Assembly (NCBI GenBank): GCA_943787785.1
Contig: CALSNT010000003.1
Coordinates: 1-64,000 of the forward strand
Direction: 5' to 3'
Origin: an uncultured Paracoccaceae bacterium
GTDB taxonomy: Bacteria > Pseudomonadota > Alphaproteobacteria > Rhodobacterales > Rhodobacteraceae
Length of the DNA stretch: 64,000 bases
Positions 8,234 to 16,741 of this stretch are shown piece by piece. Under the pieces are notes generated by a model that made no database searches, had not been told where the DNA came from, and saw only the letters and a program-made list of their open reading frames with translations. A program made the translations under genes and the position numbers. Each line of letters begins with the position of its first letter. Positions within the stretch are counted from its first letter, which is position 1.

Positions 8234-10453
8234 CTATTTGGATGCCTTGTCTGTCTTATACGCGTATTTATAGCCACCATAAGAATAGTAATATTTGCCG
8301 CCATAACGGCCATACCGGCTCCGGCTTTCATCATACTGGTTCAGGATGACGCCCGAGAGCTTTACACCCGAAGTTGTTAAAGTTTTGATGGCAGCCTGGA
8401 TGTCTCCTGGCGTCGTGACAAGATGACGGGCCACAAGCATAGACATTCCAACCTTTTGTCCGATAATCGTTGGGTCCGAAACGGAAAGACTGGGCGGCGC
8501 ATCAACAATGACAATGTCGTAAAATTCTTCTGCGGTTGTCAAAAGGTCGTCAAAGTTCGGATTTTCAAGCAATTCAGCAGGATTAGGTGGGAACTGACCA
8601 CTGAACAAAACATCGATCTTTTCTTTCGGAAAATGCTCAATACAATGTTCCGTCGTCCCGCTTAGAAAGTCTGAAAGACCAAGATGCTTCTTTTCAACCT
8701 TGAAGTAACGCCGCAAAAAACCGCGCCGCATGTCCGCGTCAATTAAGAGAACACGCGCACCCATTTGACCGTAAAGCAACGCAAGGTTGAGAGACACGAA
8801 GGATTTCCCGTCTGCAGGAGCACAGGAAGTGATCATGATCGAGTTTGAGCCGGACGAGCCGAGTGCGAATTTCAAACCAGTTCGCAAACCTCGCAAGGCT
8901 TCAACAGCCATATCATTGGGCTGAAACAGCGCGAGACCATATTCAGGAGAACTGGCCGCTTTACCAACCAGAAGCTCGGATTTACCGATTGTTGCAAACA
9001 ACGGGATCCCGAGAGCTTCAATCTCGCGCGCATCCTCAATACCCTGCCGGAAGAAATTCCGGCCAAGAACAAGCGCCACTGCCAACGCCAAACCGATCAC
9101 GGCGCCAAACACAATCGGCATTCGACGATCCGGTCCAGCCCAAGCCGCAACCTCAGCCGGCTCAAGAACCCGGATGTTGCTGACGGTACTGGCTTTCAAT
9201 ATGCCTAATTGCTCCAAACGTGCCAACAGTTGTTGCTCTAACATCTGGGAGCGCTCAACCCGTGCAACCAAGCGTGCCAATTCTTGCTCGAATTCAGGCA
9301 CCACGGACAGCCCGGAAGCTGCCTCCTGCAGTCGTTCTTGGAGACGCGCTTCCTGAACCACTAGTTGCTGAACATCCGGGTGGTTTTCAGTCAAAACCAA
9401 AAGGAGCTGTTCTTTTCGGAACTGAACCTCTTCCAATTGCCCTTCGAGCTCCAGTGCATTTTCGAGAAGTTGTTGTGTGTCTGCGCTCAACTCATTGACT
9501 TGACGGTCTCTGCGAAACTCCGCAAGCGCATCCGTTGCGCGTTTGCTTTCGCGGCGAGACTCATCCAACTGTTCTTCAATGAATTCCAGGCTGTTATCAA
9601 TTTCTTCGGAGCTACGAAGAAGATTTTGGTAAATATACTCTTGAACAATTGCATTCAAAACAACGACCGTTTCTGGGCCATCCAGCCCCGTAAGGCTGAA
9701 ATCTACAATACCTGTATTATCGCGCTCACGAATACCAAGCCGCTCTGCAATACTGGCTACAGTGTTTCGTAAAGGGCTCCTGCTCACGTAGAACATGCGG
9801 CCGGAAGCAGCTTTGAAATCCTCTACCAGGAGGCTTCCACCCCCAGGCAATCCCAAACGTTGCCCAACCTGACCTTGAACTAGATCGTTGTCCGGTGTTT
9901 CGACTGAAAAGACTCCGTCCCCGGTGATGCGCACAATGTAGCGCGCGCCCGCACGCGCATCAGGCACATCAAGTGCAGCCTCAAGAAACTCACCTGGCCG
10001 AGCATACTGCTTGGGTAAAAACTGCGAAACAAAAGGGATATTGCGTTGGTAAAAGACCCCACCCACAAACGGCAACAATTGTGGCGCGACTTCAGTTCTC
10101 AAATCCAAATCATCTATAATGGGCTCCAAAACAATTCGCGAGCGAATGATATGTGCCTCTGTCGCAAGACCACTAGAGCCCGACAAATTGCCCGTCAATA
10201 GATTGCCAATAAGTTCTTCAGGAAGGACGATGCGATCCGCGCGTTGCTCGATTTGCAGCACAGTGCTCGACCGAAAGACACTGGGAGGAATCCGTCCAAC
10301 AAATGTTCCGATAATAGCTGCAACAACCGTGAGCGCGGCAATGAACCAAATCTTAGCCCGGATCTGCGCTAGAAGATCGCGCAGATCAAGTTCAGACTCG
10401 CTGTCATCAGGAGCTTTCGGTTCAGGTACCACGTGCGTTCCGAGCGCCATCAT
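8234..10453 (-). CDS. Wzc/ExoP-like polysaccharide co-polymerase and tyrosine autokinase
   Basis: 739 residues (ATG ATG at 10453/10450). An N-terminal Wzz domain has the first membrane segment at about 33-52 and a long periplasmic coiled-coil region rich in Glu/Gln (about 270-430). The second membrane segment is at about 455-475. The cytoplasmic BY-kinase domain has Walker A (APADGKSFVSLN), Walker A' (VLLIDADMRRG), Walker B (IVIVDAPPS) and a C-terminal cluster of nine tyrosines alternating with Gly and Lys. It controls export and chain length through phosphorylation cycles reversed by the phosphatase encoded just upstream; the two genes overlap by 32 bp. Confidence 0.93.
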   Translation of the reverse strand: MMALGTHVVPEPKAPDDSESELDLRDLLAQIRAKIWFIAALTVVAAIIGTFVGRIPPSVFRSSTVLQIEQRADRIVLPEELIGNLLTGNLSGSSGLATEAHIIRSRIVLEPIIDDLDLRTEVAPQLLPFVGGVFYQRNIPFVSQFLPKQYARPGEFLEAALDVPDARAGARYIVRITGDGVFSVETPDNDLVQGQVGQRLGLPGGGSLLVEDFKAASGRMFYVSRSPLRNTVASIAERLGIRERDNTGIVDFSLTGLDGPETVVVLNAIVQEYIYQNLLRSSEEIDNSLEFIEEQLDESRRESKRATDALAEFRRDRQVNELSADTQQLLENALELEGQLEEVQFRKEQLLLVLTENHPDVQQLVVQEARLQERLQEAASGLSVVPEFEQELARLVARVERSQMLEQQLLARLEQLGILKASTVSNIRVLEPAEVAAWAGPDRRMPIVFGAVIGLALAVALVLGRNFFRQGIEDAREIEALGIPLFATIGKSELLVGKAASSPEYGLALFQPNDMAVEALRGLRTGLKFALGSSGSNSIMITSCAPADGKSFVSLNLALLYGQMGARVLLIDADMRRGFLRRYFKVEKKHLGLSDFLSGTTEHCIEHFPKEKIDVLFSGQFPPNPAELLENPNFDDLLTTAEEFYDIVIVDAPPSLSVSDPTIIGQKVGMSMLVARHLVTTPGDIQAAIKTLTTSGVKLSGVILNQYDESRSRYGRYGGKYYYSYGGYKYAYKTDKASK

Positions 10454-13628: not shown

Positions 13629-13817
13629 AGGAGGGTCTTTCGAGCAGGAAATTGCGATCTTAGCGTCAAGCTAACCGGGGGAATATGTGCAATCAAGCCA
13701 TGCAACGCTGCATGTCGGGAGCGCCACGCTAACCCGTCGTGGACGTATGACGGGTGGTGCCCGCTGTGCGTGTATAAGTGGGTCAATTATCGGGCAAGTA
13801 GTTGGATGTGGCGGAGT

Positions 13818-13835
13818 GCCGGGCTTAAGCCCGGC
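13818..13835 (+). repeat. REP-like palindrome 1
   Basis: Perfect 18-bp palindrome GCCGGGCTTAAGCCCGGC, preceded by T and followed by CTACG. The asymmetric flank (T...CTACG) gives it a forward orientation. Located 50 bp upstream of the RAYT relic. Confidence 0.8.
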
Positions 13836-13885
13836 CTACGGGGTGGTTCAGGGGTTGTTAACTATGTTCCGTCAAGCCTTCCCGC

Positions 13886-14175
13886 ATGTCCGACTACCTG
13901 CGGCCTCGGGTTCCCGGCGCGTCGATTTTCTTTGCGGTGGCGTTGGCGCAGCGTGGCAGCGATTTATTGGTGCGCGAGATCGAGGTCTTGCGCGAAGCGG
14001 TGCGGGAAACGCGGGCGGCGCGACCGTTTCGGATCGACGCATGGGTGGTGTTGCCGGACCATCTGCATTGCGTCTGGACACTGCCGCCGAGGGATAGCGA
14101 CTATTCGGCGCGTTGGGGGCGATCAAGGCGCGTTTTACACGGGCGGTGAATCGTAGGCCGGGGTTCACCCCGGCA
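13886..14175 (+). pseudogene. REP-associated tyrosine transposase (RAYT), frameshifted and truncated
   Basis: The frame starting at 13886 reads as the N-terminal half of a RAYT/Y1 transposase: MSDYLRPRVPGASIFFAV, the RIDAWVVLPDHLHCVW block with the HUH-type His pair, then LPPRDSDYSARWG. At a G5 run (14115-14119) the frame is lost; in the frame one base over, the family continuation AIKARFTRAV resumes, as if one G of a G6 run were missing. Coding similarity then ends in a REP palindrome, so the C-terminal half with the catalytic tyrosine is absent. Two independent lesions make it non-functional. Confidence 0.8.
14157..14174 (-). repeat. REP-like palindrome 2
   Basis: GCCGGGG-TTCA-CCCCGGC, preceded by GTAG and followed by A: the reverse orientation of palindrome 1. 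It marks the end of RAYT similarity. Confidence 0.75.
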
Positions 14176-14201
14176 CGGGTATTATGCCGGGCCGGGGGTA
14201 G

Positions 14202-14219
14202 GCCGGGCTTTAGCCCGGC
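14202..14219 (-). repeat. REP-like palindrome 3
   Basis: GCCGGGCT-TT-AGCCCGGC with GTAG in front and A behind, reverse orientation, 27 bp after palindrome 2. A half-copy (ATGCCGGGCCGGG) lies between them. Confidence 0.75.
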
Positions 14220-14224
14220 ACATC

Positions 14225-15079
14225 CTAGGTGCAGAATGGCGGTTGTGTTTGCGGAGGGGATGCCGGGATGAAGCCCGGCCTACGTGTTCTTCTCGTCGGA
14301 GTTTGGTGCCGGTTTGGCCGCAATCGGTTTCTCGGCGACTTCTGTTTTAGCTTCTGTGATCGCAAGCGTTTTTGCATCTGCTGTATCTTAATTTTTGCAA
14401 ATCGCTGCTCGCGTTTATGTTGTGCCACATACCATTCGTCAAAGAGCGTTTCTATCAATTCAATGAGAAGTTGGGCTTCTTCTGGTTCGACATCGACAAT
14501 AATGTTGATGTCCTTTTCCATATGCGCGCCAATATTGCAAATCTTTCGAACGTGATCGATTGCATCTACGCTTTCTGGCGATACGCCTTTTGGTGCATTT
14601 CCAGAATCAACTCGTTTTCGAAGCTCAGAAATTTCATCGACCAACCTGCCCTTTTTTATTTCACAGAAGTGACGTATCATTCCTTGTAGGCATCGGCGCG
14701 AGAGCGTTGCCGAAGCTTTCGGACTTAAGTCGCGAATGAGGCAAGCTTCCATGTAATCTTGTATTAGCGGAGCGGGTATATGTTCCGGTTGCGGATTGGC
14801 CGCTCCTTCTGGAATAATTCGCCGATCAAAGAGCTCAGTACCTGTTTGTATGCCCCGGAAGTTTCCGAGTGCATCGTGTTTCCTTTTTCCAACAGCCACG
14901 TGAATGACTGGCTGTAGGCAATCTGGATTGGCGCAGCGGGCTGCCTGTACGCTTACGGCCAAATCACCCATAACTGGCTGGTTCATGTCCAGCCTCGCGT
15001 TAAAGGTGGCTATGTCATTCATTGTCGCAGTTTGATGACGCGAGCAATGAGGGCATCTCCAATTTTTTCCCGCTTCCAT
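14225..15079 (-). CDS. DUF4145 protein with zinc-ribbon, tail encoded by a REP
   Basis: 284 residues from the ATG at 15079, six bases after the ettA stop and behind GAGG, so it is probably co-transcribed with ettA. A split zinc ribbon (CPHC at residues 9-12; CANPDC near 49-54) precedes a DUF4145 region (SPKASATLSRRCLQGMIRHF, then HVRKICNIGAHMEKD). DUF4145 occurs alone or in restriction and other defence proteins; its role is unknown. The last 60 residues are very basic (KRLRSQKLKQK, RNRLRPNRHQTPTRRTRR), and the final PGFIPA segment is translated from REP palindrome 4. The native stop may have been replaced by the REP insertion. Confidence 0.75.
   Translation of the reverse strand: MEAGKNWRCPHCSRHQTATMNDIATFNARLDMNQPVMGDLAVSVQAARCANPDCLQPVIHVAVGKRKHDALGNFRGIQTGTELFDRRIIPEGAANPQPEHIPAPLIQDYMEACLIRDLSPKASATLSRRCLQGMIRHFCEIKKGRLVDEISELRKRVDSGNAPKGVSPESVDAIDHVRKICNIGAHMEKDINIIVDVEPEEAQLLIELIETLFDEWYVAQHKREQRFAKIKIQQMQKRLRSQKLKQKSPRNRLRPNRHQTPTRRTRRPGFIPASPPQTQPPFCT
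14262..14279 (+). repeat. REP-like palindrome 4, inside the DUF4145 reading frame
   Basis: GCCGGG-ATGAAG-CCCGGC, preceded by T and followed by CTACG: forward orientation like palindrome 1. On the minus strand it is translated as part of the C-terminal tail of the 14225-15079 ORF. Confidence 0.75.
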
Positions 15080-15085
15080 AAGTTT

Positions 15086-16741
<1,656 letters not shown>

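Follow-up and report, generated by a model that had tools for sequence, protein, structure and literature searches.

A broken RAYT gene lying among REP-like palindromes raises two questions: whether it still belongs to a working system, and what it looked like before it broke. We addressed them in a 64 kb stretch of DNA (hereafter the window) from an assembly of 4.02 Mb in 24 contigs that is 96% complete (G000). A sequence-only reading of the window had proposed a decayed REP/RAYT unit at 13818-14279 with four REP-like palindromes in forward, reverse, reverse, forward order. All four were found as GTAG-tagged palindromes without a mismatch to GTAGGCCGGGNTNNANCCCGGCA (Table 1), and their order agrees when read by the CTACG flank; the palindromes lie where they had been placed, and the tagged units extend a few bases beyond that span, over 13817-14283. 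With up to three mismatches allowed, the 64 kb window held five matches to the REP pattern, the fifth being a three-mismatch overlap of the last REP, and the same search in 100 dinucleotide shuffles of the window gave a mean of 0.02 matches and never more than one. The nearest relatives point to a genome of Rhodobacteraceae type and to a decayed REPtron whose class is already known.

Table 1. Features at the RAYT remnant and its surroundings, in window coordinates.
Feature	Position	Strand	Evidence
REP 1, 5' flanking REP	13817..13839	- (GTAG tag on - strand)	0 mismatches to REP pattern
RAYT remnant, N-terminal (HUH) half	13886..14131	+	NF047646 and own N-lobe profile, 139.7 bits
HUH motif (HLH) of RAYT remnant	14060-14068	+	read in sequence
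G run GGGGG, break of RAYT reading frame	14115..14119	+	frame alignment
HUH-half end in second frame, GAIKARFTRAVNRR	14116..14152	+	agrees with IKARFTxx in related RAYTs
REP 2, inside RAYT coding sequence in the ancestor, to judge by relatives	14153..14175	+	0 mismatches; relatives' linkers
TATGCCGGGC, probable remaining arm of internal partner REP, left deletion side	14183..14192	+	inference, by-eye comparison
REP 3, 3' flanking REP	14198..14220	+	0 mismatches; same place as L048 3' REP
REP 4, inverted partner of REP 3	14261..14283	-	0 mismatches
DUF4145-domain gene, 3' end reads through REP 4	14225..15079	-	PF13643, 31.9 bits; ORF
ettA, convergent neighbour of many related RAYTs	15086..16741	-	TIGR03719, 943.7 bits; synteny

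The remnant carries its HUH motif in a RAYT-type N-terminal half, as the earlier reading had claimed. The frame at 13886-14149 scored 82.6 bits against the NCBIfam profile NF047646 (REP-associated tyrosine transposase), above the equivalog cut-off of 80 but over profile positions 2-80 of 146 only; a Pfam search of this frame gave no match at E 0.001. At the G run, where a frameshift had been suspected, the frame indeed leaves the RAYT alignment, which resumes in the next frame (14113-14271) as GAIKARFTRAVNRR. The catalytic Tyr half, reported missing, was found neither in the 3.3 kb around the remnant nor in the whole assembly (family profile, E up to 10). The window RAYT is thus a relic and not a working member of its family, and no re-reading of the G run gives a full-length RAYT frame, as the Tyr half is absent; the idea that a corrected G run might restore the gene falls away. 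A further reading would treat the 87 aa frame as a retained half-protein, domesticated as a repressor that binds REPs without cutting them. The N-terminal half has no stop besides the frameshift, has kept its HUH motif and is 78% identical to the related RAYT L048 in the alignment; yet the break in the frame comes before the HUH half is complete, the 87-aa product ends out of frame, and the other Tyr-less remnants examined end differently, so that we regard this reading as hardly credible.

REPs were also said to bracket the remnant. This holds for REPs 1, 3 and 4, which are tagged and flank the gene, while REP 2, by comparison with related RAYTs, would have lain inside it; the picture of four clean flanking REPs was dropped, as these relatives have their linker where REP 2 stands. 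Within the same family, 124 of 394 genomes gave a RAYT match. Our first set was drawn from the matches listed, with nine left out (three that lie on a short contig or at the end of one, and six of the weakest), and four loci without a RAYT match (L033-L035 and L040) were also omitted. Removing three duplicates, L030 and L032, and ten loci without both halves in one frame brought 149 RAYT loci down to 134 (a locus counts as having both halves when its two linker anchors fall in a single open frame; L120 and L126, which are included, are split by a later stop). A second, named set consisted of the best 80 of 571 matches, with titles mostly from genera of Rhodobacteraceae or Rhodobacterales and a few from other groups; six were partial and 74 were used. 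Merged without duplicates, the two sets comprise 193 RAYT loci.

In these relatives, REPs or inverted REP pairs lie in frame between the HUH and Tyr halves. The linker, measured from IKxRFS to IWQRRFW, spans 9-23 aa in 71 of the 134 two-half ORFs and at least 24 aa in the other 63. Palindromes (stem of at least 7, loop of up to 4, G+C of at least 0.6) were found in 50 of the 63 long linkers, 30 of which have two or more, and in 1 of the 71 short ones; segments of the same length on either side of the linker had them in 4/134 and 3/134 cases, and synonymous reshuffling predicted 6.5 of the 63 long linkers. Some of the 13 long linkers without a called palindrome (L037, L101, L112 and L114 among them) have one below the G+C limit. 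In the named set, which overlaps the first and was scanned with looser settings, 26/27 long and 2/47 short linkers contained a palindrome. REP types vary between loci, and the internal arm equals a flanking arm of its own locus in 33 of 41 cases (permutation mean 5.4, largest 11). Where two internal palindromes could be compared, they mirror each other's central bases at 32 of 54 loci (mean 6.7, largest 14); both permutations leave the kinship among loci in place. Four RAYTs with GGTGGGTT REPs (L037, L069, L083 and L103) have their internal pair in the opposite order to most, with tags inward. In L048, L059 and L149, the reverse internal REP alone is of the window type, the forward one being GGCGGG.

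By this comparison, REP 2 of the window would have lain inside the RAYT coding sequence, in frame. Its second-frame reading, RRPGFTPA, resembles the RRPGFSPA of L104, and 14116-14192 can be aligned with the linkers of L048 and L104, and REPs 3 and 4 with the 3' end of L048. L048, 80% identical to the remnant over 85 columns, runs from the internal REP through a spacer and TATGCCGGGC... to the Tyr half, the stop, a GTAG-REP and an inverted REP. In the window, REP 2 is followed by a short spacer and TATGCCGGGC, and then by REP 3, tag included, and REP 4; the Tyr half is therefore missing between the apparent internal partner arm and the 3' REP. The stretch at 14183-14192, compared by eye with the linkers of L048, L059, L104, L108 and L149, is probably an arm of that internal partner REP. 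It should be noted that this arm has only 10 bases and differs from L104 in phase and spacer, which calls either for several events or for another arrangement inside the gene. REP 2 and REP 3 are direct repeats, but a simple crossover between them was rejected, as both copies and their tags are retained.

The locus is probably a decayed REPtron of the TnpA-REP class with internal REPs, in which one or more deletions took the Tyr half and the frameshift at the G run broke the front. We infer an intact ancestor that would have consisted of a 5' REP, the HUH half, an in-frame inverted REP pair as linker, the Tyr half and a 3' inverted pair, convergent with ettA. A deletion, or a short series of them, would then have begun within the internal reverse REP and ended shortly before the 3' REP, on its 5' side, so that the catalytic Tyr half was lost; besides this, the frameshift would have broken the front half, in whichever order these events may have come, and the REPs would have been left as relics without a transposase. 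The decay may have been recent, and the deletion could have been made by the RAYT or by slipped replication. Alternatively, the RAYT may have lost its Tyr half in an unrelated deletion, with REPs inserted later at or beside the broken end, in which case the REP at 14153 was never internal. REPs are known inside and beside many genes, as described in PMC3733652, and the supposed partner arm is short; however, REP 2 sits at the relatives' internal-REP position with nearly the linker reading of L104, and mobility of a REP presumably depends on a working RAYT, of which no other was found in the assembly. We consider late insertion unlikely.

Other broken loci were compared with the proposed decay of an element with internal REPs. 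Fourteen partial loci were examined, of which four lie at contig ends and four still have a Tyr half (in another frame in L181, L193 and L227, behind a stop in L095), and six were kept as Tyr-less remnants away from contig ends: the window, L047, L119, L153, L159 and L224. L039 and L041 are remnants with the Tyr half only and stand outside this count. A REP-like palindrome follows soon after the HUH half in five of the six, the exception being L047, in a count that is small and was collected after the window had been seen. Only in the window and L159 did the scan, which allowed loops of up to 5, pick up a REP palindrome close by; those of L119, L153 and L224 (with a loop of 6, or imperfect) were judged by eye. 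No strain with an intact RAYT at exactly the window's place was found.

The earlier reading left it open whether the REPs of this genome are orphaned or served by another RAYT copy. The REP core occurs at 25 places in the assembly at no more than one mismatch (16 exact; reversed control 1), and the GTAG-tagged REP in 18 copies (12 exact; reversed control 0). Fourteen tagged copies lie away from the locus, at nine sites, so the palindromes are dispersed, as in a REP family, and are not unique to this place. Two REPs inverted at short spacing, the arrangement of a REPIN, are present as REPs 3 and 4 and at five of the nine other sites. A RAYT profile search of the whole assembly (E up to 10) returned a single match, the window remnant; no intact RAYT turned up elsewhere, and service by another copy gained no support in this 96%-complete assembly. 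With 18 tagged copies present and the sole RAYT match a remnant, the REPs of this genome look orphaned, without a transposase. IS200/IS605 insertion sequences are complete elements, bounded by left and right ends of their own, and as a rule occur in several copies; here, one RAYT-profile match stands in the genome with REPs around it.

Across the 394 genomes, the tagged pattern was found in 67 at no more than one mismatch, a REP tagged on both sides counting twice. Seven genomes have at least 16 matches (G090 48, G399 25, G095 25, G068 24, G301 23, G000 18 and G407 16), and six of them encode a two-half RAYT ORF with at least one internal REP of the window type (L108, L048, L059, L104, L149 and L088), the exception being the window genome. 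In G357 (14 matches) the RAYT is split by a stop (L120), and G019 (12 matches) has a RAYT with another REP type (L020). No RAYT was seen in G193 (10 matches) or G001 (8) among the matches listed in this survey. The window-type REP thus often coexists with a matching RAYT and can outlive it.

G001, a genus mate of the window species that is 99% complete, has REPs and gave no RAYT match in a genome search, so that both assemblies now lack a matching transposase. Two REP sites are common to the two species: at one, in a gap that by its peptide ends we take to be tuf-rpsJ, both flanks are alike; at the other, on the 3' side of what is presumably lepA, the right flank is alike and the left has changed. 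At least these REPs therefore predate the species split. The REPs could still be mobilised by a RAYT missing from the assembly or by a distant Y1 transposase, as the assembly is 96% complete and in 24 contigs; against this, the family profile found no second match at E up to 10, the nearly complete G001 likewise combines REPs with the absence of a RAYT match, and the two shared sites fit old, fixed copies. Continued mobilisation is accordingly very unlikely in our view.

The decayed locus also shares an address with many of its relatives. Among the 193 non-duplicate RAYT loci, drawn in part from the best 80 of 571 matches, 39 have ettA in their flank, a lower bound, as the flanks are short; it is convergent with the RAYT, at no more than 916 bases, in 38 of them and on the same strand in one. 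In L048, it follows 916 bases downstream. Long linkers occur in 32/39 loci with ettA vs 52/154 without it (Fisher p 5e-8, a value that is too small, as the rows are related). Where loci of the first set are linked to ettA and have tagged REPs both inside and beside the gene, the internal REP agrees with its own flank in 17/21 (permutation mean 3.1, largest 10), over several REP types; at the other loci of that set the figure was 16/20 (mean 2.7, largest 7). The window remnant points at ettA as well, with the DUF4145 gene between them. This gene had no match in four relatives or in the RAYT loci examined, so that the gene order here departs from the usual one. The REP through which the DUF4145 gene reads, REP 4, encodes part of the C-terminal tail (RRPGFIPASP). 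There may be a few other conserved addresses of RAYTs, if comparison of flanks by eye is a guide: the Tyr-less remnants L119 and L153 share one kind of 3' neighbour, which looks to us like the 3' end of lepA, and L159 and L224 a second.

The RAYT tree was of little use. Only 17 of its 191 branches are well supported, which force at least three changes between long and short linkers, and the window remnant shares no well-supported branch with any relative. Over the whole tree, long and short linkers required 29 changes vs a shuffled mean of 62.8 (lowest 55), and REP types 28 vs 44.2 (lowest 38). The RAYT of Roseovarius confluentis (L250), modelled with AlphaFold2 from 23 sequences, had an overall pLDDT of 61.9, with a confident HUH half (block means 86-93, residues 11-90), values of 69-79 for the Tyr half in blocks 121-150 and values below 50 in the linker insert, at residues 95-103 and 106-112. 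This agrees with, and does not prove, a flexible loop formed by the linker insert.

Internal REPs are not an undescribed phenomenon. Quentin et al. 2018 (PMC6006769) describe tnpA-REP genes of subclass 2.4 that contain in-frame REPs, as a rule located between the HUH and Tyr motifs; they term these internal REPs a unique feature of that subclass and suggest that they may affect activity little; the group 4 RAYT sequences of Bertels et al. 2017 are assigned to subclass 2.4, which is abundant in Cyanobacteria and Bacteroidetes and scattered over other phyla. The loci studied here resemble that description in having an HUH/Tyr gene flanked by REPs with further in-frame REPs inside, and REP 14153 lies at the corresponding linker position. 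Unlike it, the window copy is dead, with a frameshift and no Tyr half, and our set is mainly from Rhodobacteraceae; we tentatively relate the window copy to subclass 2.4 by its internal REP and overall likeness. REPs 3 and 4 and the pairs at five of nine other sites are inverted as in REPINs (PMC3116915), whereas only 18 tagged copies occur in the window genome. As with the REPs inside unrelated protein genes described in PMC3733652, the palindromes are read in frame as short peptides; in contrast to them, the gene that hosts the REPs in our relatives encodes the REP transposase, and the internal type is mostly that of the flanks of the same gene.

The present analysis adds the match between internal and flanking arms, the convergent ettA address and the two REP sites shared with a RAYT-less sister species. 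Neither the arm match nor the ettA address was found in the literature, which was searched only in part, so that we claim no priority; among the papers searched by text, none names RAYT and EttA together. An internal matching REP pair ties a RAYT and its REPs physically, which bears on how the two change sequence together, and the Rhodobacteraceae set offers many natural replicates, of which a good number share one address. Tentatively, and with considerable doubt, the internal pair might be a copy of the transposase's own target carried within the gene, changing along with its specificity in a gene fixed beside ettA and making the element self-limiting, and the window would be the fossil of a death by deletion. 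If so, the RAYT enzyme could cut its own coding sequence, and deletion from the internal to the 3' REP would be a built-in route to death. The locus itself is instructive as a relic, but its kind is known and it does not constitute a new system; it represents an end state in which the transposase is lost and the REPs are in place, some of them common to the sister species.

In G001, no RAYT follows ettA within the 8 kb examined, and a synteny search by way of EpsG and DUF4145 gave no matches, an empty result that proves little. Its ettA (L271, G001:C1:974500-982500) is split near the 3' end by about 1.2 kb with transposase-like frames, presumably of an IS630-like element, and 7 bases of ettA are common to both aligned pieces. 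In the window genome, the 93 kb contig C8 (2.3% of the genome) holds four of the nine other REP sites (binomial 3e-5), at 9877, 30586, 34037/34080 and 50902/50945 (L262-L264); from their peptide ends, we take three of these gaps to be rpoB-rpoC, tuf-rpsJ and rpoA-rplQ.
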